The translations under genes and the position numbers were made by a program. From Bacilli bacterium (GTDB taxonomy: Bacteria; Bacillota_I; Bacilli_A; RFN20; UBA1709), in assembly GCA_028693955.1 (NCBI GenBank), contig JAQUUH010000006.1, positions 1-47,937 of the forward strand: a stretch of DNA of 47,937 bases, given 5' to 3'. Each line of letters begins with the position of its first letter. Positions within the stretch are counted from its first letter, which is position 1. Shown here piece after piece: positions 337 to 44,819 of this stretch. The notes below the pieces were generated by a model. It made no database searches. It was not told where the DNA came from and worked only from the letters and a program-made list of their open reading frames with translations.

Positions 337-365
337 TATCATTAGTGTAAAAATTATAATATGCT

Positions 366-394
366 TTGCATAAGCAAAAATTATTATTTATAAT
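366..394 (+). promoter_or_regulatory. Sigma-A-type promoter for the cysteine desulfurase operon (TTGCAT-N17-TATAAT)
   Basis: TTGCAT 366-371, TATAAT 389-394, 17-nt spacer; followed by GAGGTG SD and ATG at 418. Confidence 0.65.
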
Positions 395-417: not shown

Positions 418-1533
418 ATGATTTATCTAGACTATAGTGCAACTACACCTGTTAATATTAAAGTTCTTAAATATTTTGAAGATGTTTCCCTTAGATATAT
501 AGGAAATGCAAATTCAATTCATTCTCTAGGGAAAAACTCTTTTAAAGCTATTAATAGTTGTAGTAAAAAAATATCATCACTTTTAAAGTTAAAAGATCAA
601 GAAATAATTTATACAAGTGGAGCAACAGAGTCTAATAATCTAGCAATCAAAGGAATAGCTTTTAAATATGCAAATCAATCTAAACAAATAATTACTACTT
701 ATTATGAGCATTCTTCAATAATTGCCTCAATAAATTACATGAGAACCCTTGGATTTAAAGTTCAAATAGTTAATAGTAACAATAAAGGTATTGTTGATTT
801 AGAACATCTTAAAAAATTAATCAATGATGATACTGTACTCGTTTCAATTGGTTCAGTAAATAGTGAAATTGGAATACGTCAACCAATAAATGAAATAAAC
901 AAAATTGTAAAGCAACATAAAAACTGTATTTTTCATTGTGATATGACACAAAGTATAGGAAAAGAAAGAATTGATTTATCACAAATTGATTTAATTTCCT
1001 TTTCTGCCCATAAATTTTATGGAATCAAAGGAGTTGGAGCTTTAATTAAGAAAAATAATTTACAATTAGACCCACAAATTCATGGTGGAAAAAGCACAAC
1101 AATATATAGAAGTGGAACTCCTGCAACACCATTAATTCTTTCAATGGGAAAAGCCTTAGAATTAATGTATGTAAACTTTGATAAAAAATATAATCATGTA
1201 GCAATGATAAATAAATATTTACGGGGAGAACTTGAAAAGATTAAGGAAATTAAAATAAATAGTACTATAGAATGTTTACCTCATATATTAAATATTAGTA
1301 TCCCTTCTTTTTCCAGTAAAAAGATGGTGAAAGAATTGGCTAAAAATGATATATATATATCTAATCACACAGCATGTTCAAGCGATGAATCAAAATCTCT
1401 TGCAATTTATGCTTTAACTAATGATTTAAAATTAGCAAGAACGAGTATTAGAATAAGTTTATCTTATCTTACTACTAAAAAGGAAATTAATATGCTCGTT
1501 GAGCAAATAAAAAGGATGTTAAAGAATGTTTAA
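418..1533 (+). CDS. Cysteine desulfurase family protein (NifS/IscS-like, class V aminotransferase)
   Basis: MIYLDYSATTPVN, YTSGATESNNLAIKG, PLP-lysine motif SFSAHKFYGIKG, candidate catalytic Cys in NHTACSSDES. Confidence 0.9.
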   Translation: MIYLDYSATTPVNIKVLKYFEDVSLRYIGNANSIHSLGKNSFKAINSCSKKISSLLKLKDQEIIYTSGATESNNLAIKGIAFKYANQSKQIITTYYEHSSIIASINYMRTLGFKVQIVNSNNKGIVDLEHLKKLINDDTVLVSIGSVNSEIGIRQPINEINKIVKQHKNCIFHCDMTQSIGKERIDLSQIDLISFSAHKFYGIKGVGALIKKNNLQLDPQIHGGKSTTIYRSGTPATPLILSMGKALELMYVNFDKKYNHVAMINKYLRGELEKIKEIKINSTIECLPHILNISIPSFSSKKMVKELAKNDIYISNHTACSSDESKSLAIYALTNDLKLARTSIRISLSYLTTKKEINMLVEQIKRMLKNV

Positions 1534-1798
1534 AATTATTATTATAAGCGCCTTATGGTGTCCAAGTTGTTTGATTATGAGTGAGAAATACGATAGATTA
1601 AAATCTGAATTTAGCAATTTTGAATATATTAATTTTGATTTTGATTTTGATAAAGACAAAACAGCAAAATATAATATTGGTAAAATTTTACCAATATTAA
1701 TTATTGAAAAAAATAATGAAGAAATTTTAAGAATTATTGGTGAAAAGTCATACAAAGAATTAAAAAAACAAATCGAGGAGTTAATAAATGATAAGTAA
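1526..1798 (+). CDS. Small thioredoxin-like protein with CPSC motif
   Basis: 90 aa; IIISALWCPSCLIMSEKYDRLKSEF. Start codon overlaps the desulfurase stop (ATGTTTAA). Confidence 0.75.
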   Translation: MFKIIIISALWCPSCLIMSEKYDRLKSEFSNFEYINFDFDFDKDKTAKYNIGKILPILIIEKNNEEILRIIGEKSYKELKKQIEELINDK

Positions 1799-3008
1799 AT
1801 TTTTGAAGTCTATATTTTTAGGTCTTTCATTATTATTTACTTCAATAAACCCCATAAGTATTAAAAGTCTTGATACAAATGTGGCCAATGAAGTTAATAT
1901 TTATTTTTTTCATGTTGAAAATTGTAGTAGTTGTGCAAAAATTGAAAATCTTTTGGATGATATTAAAAAAGAATACGAAAATGTTAATATCATTAAATAC
2001 ATGATTAATGATGATAACCCCGAAAGTGCTGAATTATTAAATAAAATAGCTGAAGCATTTGATGAAGATCAAGTTGCAACTCCTTTTGTAACTTTAGGTG
2101 GTAAACATTATGTCGGTTATAATGTCTATGTGAGCGCTCAAATAACAAAGTATGTTGAGAAATATACAAATAATGATTTTATTGATGTGACCTCAAAAAT
2201 AATAAATAATCAGCCAATTAGTAATAGTGATTTTGATTTATCAAGTGATGATGAGTTTTATTTACCAATAATTGGAAATATTAATATCAAAAACACTTCT
2301 TTAATACTAATATCTGTTGTTCTTGGACTTGTTGATGGATTTAATCCTTGTGCAATGTGGGTTTTAATATTTTTAATAACCTTACTTTTACCAACAAAAG
2401 ATAAAAAAAGAATTTGGATAATTGGGGGAATATTTTTACTAACATCAGCCATTTTTTATTTCATAATAATGATGGCATGGATAGAAACAATTTCTTTAAT
2501 CAGTGCAAAAACCATTTTCCAAATAATAATTGGTGCTTTTGCGATGGGAGCAGGTATATACAATTTATATAACTTTTTTAAGAATTTAAAAAATAAAGAT
2601 GTTGGATGTGAAGTAACAAATGAAAATCAACGCATGAAACTTATGCAAAGAATTCAAAGACTGACATCTCAAAAAAGTTTGCTAATTGCTGTAGGTGGAG
2701 TCATTGTTTTGGCAATTGTTGTAAATTTTATTGAACTTGCATGCTCTACAGGCTTACCAGTATTATTTTCTCAAATATTACTTATTAACAACATTTCTGG
2801 TATACAAGCAATAGGTTATGTACTAGTTTATATATTATTTTTCCTAATTGATGATCTTTTTGTTTTTATTACAGTTATTACAACTTTAAAACTTAAAGGT
2901 ATTTCAAATAAAATTGGCAAATATTCTAGTCTAATTGGTGGAATAATTATGCTTTTAATAGGCATTTTAATGATTTTCTTTCCAAATATTATAATGTTGA
3001 ATTTTTAA
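1788..3008 (+). CDS. Glutaredoxin/thioredoxin-like domain (CSSC) fused to CcdA/DsbD-like membrane domain; thiol-disulfide transporter-like protein
   Basis: N-terminal hydrophobic segment, FFHVENCSSCAKIENLL redox motif, then several TM segments with GLVDGFNPCAMWVL and ELACSTGLPVLFSQ typical of the CcdA/DsbD family. Overlaps the upstream ORF. Confidence 0.78.
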   Translation: MISKFLKSIFLGLSLLFTSINPISIKSLDTNVANEVNIYFFHVENCSSCAKIENLLDDIKKEYENVNIIKYMINDDNPESAELLNKIAEAFDEDQVATPFVTLGGKHYVGYNVYVSAQITKYVEKYTNNDFIDVTSKIINNQPISNSDFDLSSDDEFYLPIIGNINIKNTSLILISVVLGLVDGFNPCAMWVLIFLITLLLPTKDKKRIWIIGGIFLLTSAIFYFIIMMAWIETISLISAKTIFQIIIGAFAMGAGIYNLYNFFKNLKNKDVGCEVTNENQRMKLMQRIQRLTSQKSLLIAVGGVIVLAIVVNFIELACSTGLPVLFSQILLINNISGIQAIGYVLVYILFFLIDDLFVFITVITTLKLKGISNKIGKYSSLIGGIIMLLIGILMIFFPNIIMLNF

Positions 3009-3012
3009 AATA

Positions 3013-3038
3013 AAAGAATAGTTGCAAAACTATTCTTT
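3013..3038. terminator. Bidirectional intrinsic terminator between convergent genes
   Basis: AAAGAATAGTT-GCAA-AACTATTCTTT, 11-bp perfect stem between a + stop at 3008 and a - stop at 3037. Confidence 0.7.
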
Positions 3039-18840: not shown

Positions 18841-18975
18841 AAACTCAAATAAAAACGAGTGCAAACGCACCCGTTAAAAATCATTTATTTCTAAATTTTT
18901 GTGACATTTTACCCAAAGTTATAAACAATCAGGTGAGAAGCGGGTGCCTCTTCTTTTCACGTATTCGTTTTTGCT
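18841..18975 (-). ncRNA. Candidate L20-type autoregulatory leader of infC-rpmI-rplT
   Basis: RNA contains GAGGCACCCGCTTCTCACCTGATTGTTTATA..., and GCACCCG (18941-18947) is complementary to CGGGTGC (18867-18873), which is also the 5' arm of a terminator hairpin. Confidence 0.7.
18851..18874 (-). terminator. Leader terminator (attenuator) upstream of infC
   Basis: Reverse strand ACGGGTGC-GTTT-GCACTCGTTTTT. Confidence 0.75.
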
Positions 18976-23729: not shown

Positions 23730-23955
23730 AACGCCCTAGAAAATACATTTTCTAAGGACGAAATCCGCGGTACCACCTTAATTCACACCATACGATAATA
23801 TTGTGTGCACTTAATTCCTGTTAACGCCAGCAACGTCATTGTTCACAATGATTCTCAAAAGCGGTAAGTAATAAATAATTTATAAAGTATTTCACCAATT
23901 TACTTCTCTCTATAATAAATTAAACATACTCTTGTCTTTTTCAAAGAATTTAAAC
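23730..23955 (-). ncRNA. T-box leader of thrS with terminator
   Basis: Reverse strand has AGAGAG...TTGGTGAAA, Stem I-like ends (ATTCT/AGAAT), hairpin TCATTG-TGAA-CAATGA, canonical GGTGGTACCGCGG (T-box core 23765-23774) and terminator CGTCCTTAGAAAATGTATTTTCTAGGGCGTTTTTTATTTT. Confidence 0.92.
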
Positions 23956-32975: not shown

Positions 32976-34445
32976 TTACTTAATTTTATTTATCAAATAT
33001 TTAACCTGATTTTTAGTGTTTTCAATAGATAGAGAATTATCAATGATATAGTCAGCCATTTTTATTTTTTCGGTATCACTGATTACTCTTTTATTTAAAT
33101 CTTTTGCGTGTTTTAATGGCATTGTATCTCTTTGAATTAAACGTTTTTTCCTTATTTTTTCATCTATATTTACAAAAACAACAAAATCACATAACTTATC
33201 CATTTTTGATTCATACAATAATGGCACATCTAATATTATATATTTATCTATATTATTTTTTATTTCATTTTTTGTTTTTTCAATTACATATGGATGAATA
33301 ATATTTTCTAAATCAATTATATTTTGTTTATCCTTGATTACAATTTCACGTAAAACTGAACGATTTATAGTTTTATCATCATTTAAAATCGCACTAGAAA
33401 ATCTTTCAATAGATTGATTATAACTTTTTGTTCCAATATTCAAAGCCTCTTTAGAATAAATATCAGAATCCAAAATTATAAACCCCTCATTTTTAAATAG
33501 ATTACTAACACTACTTTTACCGCTACCAATTAAACCAGTTATACCAATTATTCTTATATTTTTACTATTAATCTTTTTGGCCTGACATTGTGGGCAAAAA
33601 TGAGTTCCCCTTCCTCCTAAAGATGTTTTTACAATTGGAGTATTACAATTATAACATTCTTCTCCTTCTCTACCATATACTTTTATTTGCAGTTGAAATT
33701 TTCCATCAACACCATTTGCAGCATGGTATGTCCTTATCGTCGAACCACCACTTTCAATCGCTTTATTCAAGATTTTTCTAGCGGAAAAAATAATGTTTTC
33801 ACAATCAAATTTAGATAAACTATTGGTTAAAGAAAAAGGTGATAATTTACAGTCAAAACATATTTCATCTGCATAGATATTACCAATTCCAGAAATTATT
33901 TTTTGATTTAGTAATACTTGTTTTAATGGCTTTTTAGTATTTTGCAACTTTTTAAAAAGATAATCAGAATTTGCTTCAAAAGGATCTGGTCCCAAATTTA
34001 TTAATGGTTCTTCTTTTAAATAATTATCAGTACCTTTTAAATACATTCTTCCAAATTTTCTAACATCATGGTACATCAATATACTACCATCTTCAAATTC
34101 AAATATTACATGAACATGTTTTAGATTTTTATCATTTTTTGCAGTTTCTTTATCATAAATTATTCCTGAAGTAAATTTTTTATTATTACTATAATGTCCA
34201 TAATGATATTTACCTTCCATTCTTAAATGAGAAATTATAACATTTTTTTCTAAAATGAAAATCAAAAATTTACCTTTTCTTGAGATTTCTTTAATTTTTT
34301 GCCCTATTAATTTGCTTTCAAAAACACTAGGAGTAACATTAGAAATTATTGGAGGATAAATAATGTTTATACCTGTAATTTTTTTATTAACTATCCAACT
34401 TTCTAGTACCTTTCGTACAGTTTCTACTTCTGGTAATTCTGGCAT
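32976..34445 (-). CDS. mutM-coaE: Fused formamidopyrimidine-DNA glycosylase (MutM/Fpg) - dephospho-CoA kinase (CoaE)
   Basis: MPELPEVETVRKVL Fpg N-terminus, CYNCNTPIVKTSLGGRGTHFCPQCQ zinc finger to about residue 288, then IRIIGITGLIGSGKSSVSNLFKNEGFIILDSD CoaE domain in the same frame. Confidence 0.93.
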   Translation of the reverse strand: MPELPEVETVRKVLESWIVNKKITGINIIYPPIISNVTPSVFESKLIGQKIKEISRKGKFLIFILEKNVIISHLRMEGKYHYGHYSNNKKFTSGIIYDKETAKNDKNLKHVHVIFEFEDGSILMYHDVRKFGRMYLKGTDNYLKEEPLINLGPDPFEANSDYLFKKLQNTKKPLKQVLLNQKIISGIGNIYADEICFDCKLSPFSLTNSLSKFDCENIIFSARKILNKAIESGGSTIRTYHAANGVDGKFQLQIKVYGREGEECYNCNTPIVKTSLGGRGTHFCPQCQAKKINSKNIRIIGITGLIGSGKSSVSNLFKNEGFIILDSDIYSKEALNIGTKSYNQSIERFSSAILNDDKTINRSVLREIVIKDKQNIIDLENIIHPYVIEKTKNEIKNNIDKYIILDVPLLYESKMDKLCDFVVFVNIDEKIRKKRLIQRDTMPLKHAKDLNKRVISDTEKIKMADYIIDNSLSIENTKNQVKYLINKIK

Positions 34446-42499: not shown

Positions 42500-43684
42500 T
42501 TATAAAAATTGATTATCTAGTGAACTATCAATATACAAAGTTTCAATATTTTCAATGCATTCTTGAAGCAAATCCTCATAATTAAATCTTTTTTCTAATT
42601 CCTCTGCTCGATATAATGTTGGTTTAATTATTGGATTTACTGGATTAAAGATGGTACAGCAATCAATATATGGTCGAATCGAAATATCATATGTATTAAT
42701 TCTTTTAGATATCTCAATTATTTCATTCTTATCCATTGTTGCTAATGGTCTTATCATTGGTAGACTAATAACATTATTTATTACTAACATGCTATTTAAG
42801 GTTTGCGAAGCAACTTGTCCAATACTTTCCCCACTAACAAGAGCTAAACATTTTCTTTTTATTGCCACTCCTTCAGCAATTCTATACATCATTCTACGCA
42901 TTATAGTTATAGCATAAGATTCATCACCCATATCATATATTGCTTCTTGAAGTTTAGTAAATGGAACTATATGCAAAGTAATTGCTCCGCCTTTTATGTT
43001 TGAAATAATACGTAATAAGTCTATAACTTTTTGTTTTGCATTTTGGCTTGTATAAGGAGGTGATGCAAAATGAATTGCTTCTATATTTACACCCCTTTTC
43101 ATCATCAAATAAATCGCTACTGGAGAATCTATTCCTCCAGAAATCAAAGCTAAGGCTTTACCTCCAACACCTAATGGATAGCCTCCAGCTCCTTTTATTA
43201 CATTAGAAAATATAAAAGCACCCTCATTCCTAATCTCAATTTTTACATAAAAATCCGGATTATGAACATCTACATGATGTTTTGTATTGTTAAGTATTTC
43301 ATTTGCCACTGACCTATTTATCTCGTCTGAATGATACGGAAATGATTTATCTGATCTAGTTGTTTTTACTTTAAAAGTACCAACTTCTTGTTGAAGCGCT
43401 AAATCTAACGCTACATTTATTATTGAAGTAATATCCTTACTTGTTTTTGTAACCAAAGACATATTAGCAATACCTGATACTTCTTTTAAAATTTTGATTA
43501 CTTCATTTTCATCTTCACCATTCAAGTGTATATATATTCTATCATGAGCTCTTAAAAACTCTAATTTTTCAAATTTCTTTAGTACTTTTTTAATATTATG
43601 GAAAAGTGCAATAATAAAATCTTTTTTATTTTTTCCCTTAGTATTTAGTTCTCCAAAACGTATTAGTATATGTTCATATTTCAT
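42500..43684 (-). CDS. thiI: tRNA 4-thiouridine synthetase ThiI
   Basis: ILIRFGELNTKGKNKKDFI, LALISGGIDSPVAIYLMMKRGVNIEAIHFASPPYTS, ALVSGESIGQVASQTL. Confidence 0.95.
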   Translation of the reverse strand: MKYEHILIRFGELNTKGKNKKDFIIALFHNIKKVLKKFEKLEFLRAHDRIYIHLNGEDENEVIKILKEVSGIANMSLVTKTSKDITSIINVALDLALQQEVGTFKVKTTRSDKSFPYHSDEINRSVANEILNNTKHHVDVHNPDFYVKIEIRNEGAFIFSNVIKGAGGYPLGVGGKALALISGGIDSPVAIYLMMKRGVNIEAIHFASPPYTSQNAKQKVIDLLRIISNIKGGAITLHIVPFTKLQEAIYDMGDESYAITIMRRMMYRIAEGVAIKRKCLALVSGESIGQVASQTLNSMLVINNVISLPMIRPLATMDKNEIIEISKRINTYDISIRPYIDCCTIFNPVNPIIKPTLYRAEELEKRFNYEDLLQECIENIETLYIDSSLDNQFL

Positions 43685-43688
43685 TTTT

Positions 43689-44819
43689 TTACCCCTTTAT
43701 CGAAACTACTATTTCATCTAAAACTTTTAAAAATTGTTTTATTTCTTCTAATGTTGTAAATTTTGATAAACTTACTCTTATTGATGATTCTGCCCTTTTA
43801 ATATCTTTAAAAGTCTCAAATACAACATGTGATGGCATCTCTGTTTTAGTACTACAAGCACTTATAGTTGATAAACATATGCCTTGGTCATCAAATGCTT
43901 GAGCAACTACTGCTGCTTTTTTATTTTTAATTGAAAAGTTAATTATATATGGAGATGAATCTTCTATTGGGCTGTTAATTTGTATGCTTTCCATCTTTTT
44001 TAAATGTTCAATTATTATTTTTTTAAATTGTAAAACGTGTTCATAATTTCCCATTTGACTATTTGTTGCCAATCGTAATGTTTTGGCAAACATAACATTT
44101 ACTGGCCAGTTTGATGTTCCACTACGATATCCATATTCTTGACCCCCACCTGCAATTAAAGGAAGAATTTCAATGTTTTTTTTCTTAACAAGAATTCCGC
44201 TTCCTTTTAATCCATAAATTTTATGAGCAGAAATACTAACTAAATCGACATTTTTTAAATCAATTGGTATTTTACCAATCGCTTGAGTAGCATCGCAATG
44301 AAATATAATTGTTGGTTTTTCCAATAAAAAAGACCCAATTTCTGGAATAGGATTTATTGTACCAATTTCATTATTTACATACATTATACTAACAAGAATT
44401 GTATCTTTTCTTATATGCTTTTTAAGTGTTTCAAGAGTAATTTTTCCATTTTCATCTGGTTGCAAGTATGTTATTTCAAAACCAAATTCCTTTTCTAATT
44501 GTTTGCAGCACTCTAAAACACTTTTATGCTCTATTGATGAAGTTATAATGTGCTTGCCTCTATTTTTGTATTTAAAAGCCACTCCTTTAATTGCAAAATT
44601 GTTTGCTTCACTAGAACCACTAGTAAATATTACTTCATCCATTTTAACTTTTAATATATTGGCAATCTGATTTCTTGCCTGATTTTGCAAAGAATCTACT
44701 TCAAGTCCTAATTGATGATTTGATGCACTATTTGCATAATATTTGTTTAATAATTCCCAATAAGACTTCAAAACTTCTTTATCAATTGGTGTTGTTGATG
44801 CATAATCTAAAAAAATCAT
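43689..44819 (-). CDS. Cysteine desulfurase paired with ThiI
   Basis: MIFLDYASTTPIDKEVL, FTSGSSEANNFAIKG, SSIEHKSVLECC, SISAHKIYGLKGSG, candidate Cys in STISACSTKTEMPSHV. Confidence 0.94.
   Translation of the reverse strand: MIFLDYASTTPIDKEVLKSYWELLNKYYANSASNHQLGLEVDSLQNQARNQIANILKVKMDEVIFTSGSSEANNFAIKGVAFKYKNRGKHIITSSIEHKSVLECCKQLEKEFGFEITYLQPDENGKITLETLKKHIRKDTILVSIMYVNNEIGTINPIPEIGSFLLEKPTIIFHCDATQAIGKIPIDLKNVDLVSISAHKIYGLKGSGILVKKKNIEILPLIAGGGQEYGYRSGTSNWPVNVMFAKTLRLATNSQMGNYEHVLQFKKIIIEHLKKMESIQINSPIEDSSPYIINFSIKNKKAAVVAQAFDDQGICLSTISACSTKTEMPSHVVFETFKDIKRAESSIRVSLSKFTTLEEIKQFLKVLDEIVVSIKG

Follow-up and report, generated by a model that had tools for sequence, protein, structure and literature searches.

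A conserved operon of a cysteine desulfurase, a minimal thioredoxin and a putative CcdA/DsbD-like membrane protein in reduced-genome Bacilli

Three overlapping genes near the start of a 47,937-nucleotide stretch of DNA from a Bacilli bacterium (contig JAQUUH010000006.1; the whole analyzed stretch is hereafter the window) encode a cysteine desulfurase (DES), a minimal thioredoxin (TRX), and a putative CcdA/DsbD-like membrane protein (CCD), and constitute a genuine operon, conserved in reduced-genome Bacilli and assembled from known kinds of parts (Table 1). No account of this triad was found in the literature searched, which is weak evidence for absence, and the operon is apparently undescribed so far. 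The preferred reading, with a probability of roughly 0.45, is of a cysteine-sulfur and thiol-redox operon in which TRX serves as a hub for both DES and CCD; judged from sequence, coupling among the three proteins is plausible.

Table 1. Positions of the operon, its signals, and the second desulfurase locus in the window.
Feature	Position	Strand	Basis
Promoter-like site, TTTGCA-18-TATAAT	365–394	+	Consensus scan, 10 of 12
Ribosome-binding site GAGGTGATA and DES start codon	409–420	+	Sequence
DES, group-I (IscS/NifS-type) cysteine desulfurase, 371 aa	418–1533	+	Pfam, NCBIfam, alignment, tree
TRX, minimal thioredoxin, 90 aa, WCPSC, cis-Pro56	1526–1798	+	Pfam, alignment, AlphaFold
CCD, CcdA/DsbD-like membrane protein, 406 aa	1788–3008	+	Invariant residues, model, hhalign, charge pattern
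A+T-rich 11-bp hairpin	3013–3038		RNA fold, −11.2 kcal/mol, z = −3.2
ThiI tRNA sulfurtransferase, adjoining DES2	42500–43684	−	TIGR00342, 395 bits
DES2, second group-I desulfurase, outside the operon	43689–44819	−	Adjoins ThiI; separate clade

All three ORFs lie on the forward strand with overlaps of 8 nt (DES/TRX) and 11 nt (TRX/CCD), bearing out the coordinates and both overlaps recorded in an earlier note on this DNA, which had also placed the triad under one promoter and ahead of a terminator. A single promoter for the whole triad is likely and the site upstream of DES is a plausible candidate, but matches of this type are no more common in the window (n = 30) than in shuffled sequence (26.6 ± 4.4). 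RNA folding recovered a hairpin immediately behind CCD, missed by a simple terminator scan because it is A+T-rich; it sits between CCD and a convergent MazG-like gene and is probably a bidirectional terminator. Elsewhere in the window, a single ORF (32976–34445, −) resembles a fusion of MutM (Fpg, formamidopyrimidine-DNA glycosylase) and CoaE (dephospho-CoA kinase), ribosomal protein L20 (17263–18024, −; 253 aa) carries a C-terminal extension of ~135 residues rich in Lys, Glu, and Ala, and two leaders score above the Rfam gathering score, an L20 leader ahead of an IF-3-like gene (18841–18961, −) and a T-box leader ahead of a threonyl-tRNA synthetase-like gene (23751–23953, −).

Using CCD to scan GTDB contigs, 454 relatives were detected and the best 80 retained, most of which belong to loci with DES, TRX, and CCD in the same order. 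Among these best 80 of 454, 58 full-length triads were tabulated (35–56% protein identity) from diverse Bacilli MAGs, with flanking genes that differ or are unrelated. TRX and CCD abut or overlap at every locus (57/57), as do DES and TRX at 48/57, with occasional insertions between the latter pair (a pentapeptide repeat protein or a ComEB-like deaminase). Full-length CCD occurred in 34 of 247 genomes in a class-level sample; together with two further relatives (n = 36), 29 CCD-bearing genomes have DES directly upstream of CCD at a constant, TRX-sized gap. Chance adjacency of the three genes is ruled out by this conserved order (58 loci; 29/36 genomes), which recurs across many families of Bacilli and far past close relatives, as the earlier treatment of the genes as one unit had supposed. 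Strong CCD matches in a phylum-level sample were confined to the window's own class, CCD without DES was found in other phyla (Patescibacteria and allied groups, an Aenigmatarchaeota MAG, and a cyanobacterial plasmid), and the plasmid and viral collections yielded one distant CCD apiece. One genome (G066:C6) has CCD divided between two ORFs, and one search match (G146:C1) contains a single in-frame TAA, either of which may reflect decay or a sequencing error.

DES matches Pfam Aminotran_5 (1.7e-69), and its best NCBIfam families are of the IscS/NifS type (group I; IscS, 4.8e-88), with scores under every equivalog cut-off (IscS, 295.9 bits compared to a curated 643; NifS, 280 compared to 531; DndA, 281 compared to 480). 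The PLP lysine (Lys199, SAHK) and the catalytic cysteine of the C-terminal loop (Cys320, TACSS), the latter previously listed as a candidate, are both present and invariant across the aligned desulfurases (alignment A2), and members of the triad clade share the motif IHGGKSTTxYRSGTP. In a 118-row tree, the type of desulfurase phylogeny proposed as a check in the earlier note, desulfurases from triads and from loci with TRX only cluster together almost without exception. Outside this clade lies a starred group (98*) holding ThiI-linked enzymes of the window's order, including DES2, and E. coli IscS, and the nearest outsiders are ThiI-linked desulfurases of family f17. The window DES neither clusters with ThiI-linked enzymes nor adjoins ThiI; the second, ThiI-associated desulfurase reported earlier is present as DES2. 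Two outcomes that the earlier note would have taken as refuting, a gene order restricted to close relatives and a desulfurase placed tightly among housekeeping enzymes, were therefore both absent.

TRX matches Pfam Thioredoxin (1e-8) and carries WCPSC, its Cys12, Cys15, and cis-Pro56 are invariant in 44 relatives (alignment A3), and its AlphaFold model (pLDDT 95) adopts a thioredoxin fold (TM up to 0.90), in agreement with its first description as a minimal CPSC thioredoxin-like protein. The DES–TRX pair is retained without CCD in three genomes (G146, G158, and G234) and the TRX–CCD pair without DES in four (G087, G181, G219, and G008); TRX is therefore considered the shared partner, or hub. 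These partial loci also bear on an explanation by co-expression only, a serious possibility if not the favored one, in which DES is a housekeeping donor for tRNA thiolation, TRX and CCD maintain the reduced state of extracytoplasmic proteins as an ordinary relay of the CcdA/Etrx type, DES and TRX make no contact, and the operon is shared because both functions are needed together. Systems in which CcdA serves extracellular thiols and MsrAB are already known, and the occurrence of TRX–CCD and of CCD without DES fits such an arrangement, but DES and TRX remain paired after CCD has moved off, which is hard to reconcile with a TRX that served CCD only, and the linkage outlasts deep divergence with changing flanks.

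The desulfurase complement of the triad genomes fits co-expression only and the preferred reading alike. Of 29 triad genomes, 19 have no group-I (IscS-type) desulfurase other than DES, and most of these encode MnmA and ThiI elsewhere (in G163, ThiI lies immediately 3' of CCD); by elimination, DES probably donates the sulfur used in tRNA thiolation in the genomes where it stands alone. The window genome differs in possessing a ThiI-linked copy as well, and the earlier suggestion that this leaves DES free for another role does not generalize because DES is the sole group-I enzyme in so many triad genomes. An Fe–S assembly role for the triad was considered and rejected, as no scaffold gene adjoins it and SUF with its own SufS is found in nearly all sampled genomes. 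SufB/D occur in 54 of 57 sampled genomes and SufU in 54. In the window genome (G000, contig C22), no SufB/SufD, SufU/IscU, or SufS was found, and ten radical-SAM matches, which need Fe–S clusters, were; the missing SUF may reflect a gap in the assembly (95% complete) or else Fe–S supply of an unusual kind.

CCD is laid out as a signal/anchor helix, an extracytoplasmic thioredoxin-like domain (C46/C49, CSSC), and a six-helix membrane domain with C188 (FNPCAMW) and C319 (ELACS) in the membrane and C274 (GCEV) in a cytosolic loop. These are its only five cysteines, all invariant across 41 relatives, including those from Patescibacteria; the CSSC, FNPCA, and ELACS cysteines had been pointed out before and C274 had gone unlisted. 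In the predicted structure (mean pLDDT 83), the N-terminal helix and the thioredoxin-like domain are joined by six TM helices arranged as two halves, each holding one membrane cysteine, and two of these helices are modeled as broken at C188 and C319, as in CcdA. Judged by the charge pattern, the N-terminal domain faces the exterior and the loop with C274 faces the cytosol. Profile alignment (hhalign) of CCD to a sister family (A4) gave 9e-31 with the NPCA and E-x-x-C motifs aligned, and two of eight members of that family match DsbD_TM at 2e-5 to 4e-5, which is sub-threshold. None of the 41 CCD members matched DsbD_TM (PF02683) above threshold (one weak DsbD_2 match occurred), CCD is unassigned to DsbD_TM by the Pfam and NCBIfam cut-offs, direct comparison to E. 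coli DsbD gave no membrane-domain match, and a Foldseek search with the whole model returned only thioredoxin-domain and spurious matches. The original CcdA/DsbD-like assignment is plausible on the helix and cysteine layout, together with the profile tie to a DsbD_TM-like family; CCD is predicted to work in the manner of DsbD_TM proteins but is no member by the Pfam threshold.

Gene neighborhoods extend the picture in Izemoplasmatales-type genomes (family f28), where an operon of an Lpd-like flavoprotein (in some cases followed by a further gene), DES, TRX, CCD, CysE, and CysK is found in G140, G176, and G214, with coordinates that fit this flavoprotein disulfide reductase-type arrangement in G194 too, and where G146, G158, and G234 have the same operon minus CCD. 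The flavoprotein, CysE, and CysK place the unit within cysteine-sulfur metabolism, and the extended operon points beyond the repair of exported proteins alone. The flavoprotein is a candidate TRX reductase in these genomes, and the replacement of CCD by CysE–CysK beside DES–TRX hints at a possible part for CCD itself in supplying cysteine, perhaps through reduction of cystine on the outside. A sulfide-release module, in which TRX would mainly strip the DES persulfide to H2S, to be exported or used by cysteine synthase, while CCD would do no more than drain excess electrons, draws on the DES–TRX(–CCD)–CysE–CysK order of six such genomes and on established chemistry, since thioredoxin removes persulfides and releases their sulfur (PMC10433728). 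It is nonetheless unlikely: conversion of cysteine to sulfide and back to cysteine would be futile, and CysK is absent from the window's genome and nearly all CCD carriers of family f17. A driving role of cysteine auxotrophy for CCD was inseparable from ancestry, with f17 genomes lacking CysK whether or not they carry CCD. In the window and in 17 loci, the operon showed no cysteine-responsive leader (T-box or SAM), and no transporter accompanied it in the loci tested. These results count against the preferred reading.

Beyond the triad, CCD occurs beside Trx-like lipoproteins in clusters with ArsR and a CadA-type (heavy-metal) ATPase (L160, 4849–9530; L233, 28–4597) and, in Patescibacteria, with a glutaredoxin and a TrxB-like protein as neighbors (L036 and L060), as an electron relay would predict. 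One of the two heavy-metal loci is on a viral-collection contig. That CCD also occurs without any desulfurase, the heavy-metal context included, counts against the preferred reading, as does the fact that other group-I desulfurases function without a dedicated thioredoxin. On a Pseudanabaena plasmid (L232, 4803–6711), a CCD relative annotated as 'glutaredoxin family protein' lies directly 3' of a DsrE-family protein, with cysK nearby. This neighbor, the fixed DES–TRX–CCD order, and the additional invariant thiol that C274 provides at the cytosolic face would suit a relay of sulfane sulfur itself, rather than electrons, handed on by DES through TRX to the membrane cysteines of CCD and out. Such sulfur export is very improbable, as every motif is of the electron-relay type, the Patescibacteria CCD keep company with the TrxB-like protein and glutaredoxin and no sulfur enzyme, and the DsrE-family protein bears an apparent signal sequence.

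Under the preferred reading of TRX as a hub, the computed features (genes, linkage, invariant cysteines, TRX fold, DES grouping, and extended operon) can be joined into a scheme whose electron- and sulfur-transfer steps, outer substrate, and tRNA-thiolation clients we infer. DES would take cysteine sulfur as an enzyme persulfide and hand it to cytosolic acceptors, in most carriers for MnmA/ThiI-type tRNA thiolation. TRX would be reduced by TrxB, or probably by the co-encoded Lpd-like flavoprotein in Izemoplasmatales-type genomes; the window genome encodes a TrxB-like protein with CAVC that scores under the curated cut-off. Reduced TRX would act on DES or its acceptors, either freeing the persulfide sulfur in the form of sulfide or reducing disulfides that arise in sulfur transfer, and would also charge CCD, from which electrons would pass via C188/C319 to the outer CxxC, with C274 perhaps a cytosolic docking thiol. 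The outer CxxC may then reduce disulfides outside the cytoplasm, of which cystine or small S–S compounds are the most plausible, and so allow uptake of cysteine or sulfide. The earlier idea of desulfuration driving electron export has the redox direction wrong and is unlikely because sulfide release from a persulfide consumes two electrons. It is also decidedly unlikely that DES is physically coupled to the transmembrane relay, with TRX exchanging sulfane sulfur or persulfide-linked oxidizing equivalents from DES with the outside via CCD; if true, extracellular redox would directly set cysteine-sulfur use, or sulfur itself would be exported.

From the triad one would predict that an IscS-type desulfurase has a redox partner of its own, and that CysK-less, reduced-genome gut Bacilli may have a route linking cysteine-sulfur use to thiol reduction outside the cell. 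CCD represents a five-cysteine CcdA-like family that is missed by the major profile libraries and whose conserved thiols form a compact set. CcdA takes electrons from thioredoxin in the cytosol and delivers them to thiols outside (PMC12288474). With the CcdA/DsbD relays (Etrx, TlpA, MsrAB, and cytochrome c clients), CCD shares six helices with one cysteine in each half, an outer Trx-like CxxC domain, and, as proposed here, a cytosolic thioredoxin as donor; it differs in its sub-threshold DsbD_TM score, the extra cytosolic C274, an N-terminal ectodomain, and an operon shared with a cysteine desulfurase. DES resembles other group-I desulfurases (E. coli IscS and DES2) in its PLP lysine, catalytic cysteine loop, and full-length homology, but belongs to a separate clade, replaces the GGG(H/Q)E-type loop with IHGGKSTTxYRSGTP, and has a partner thioredoxin with no IscU/SufU alongside. 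For serine acetyltransferase in the nif desulfurase cluster, a role in enlarging the cysteine pool has been proposed (PMC6006210), and the Izemoplasmatales-type version of the operon likewise combines a desulfurase with cysteine biosynthesis genes, as in nifUSV-cysE1/nifP and cysK-cysE operons; in that version the thioredoxin, flavoprotein, and membrane relay are built in as well, and the window version is without CysE/CysK. Relative to the desulfurase-IscU-MnmA and desulfurase-ThiI operons of Firmicutes, the triad has in common a group-I desulfurase and, by elimination, probable tRNA-thiolation clients, but its thiolation enzymes are encoded elsewhere and its redox partners next door.
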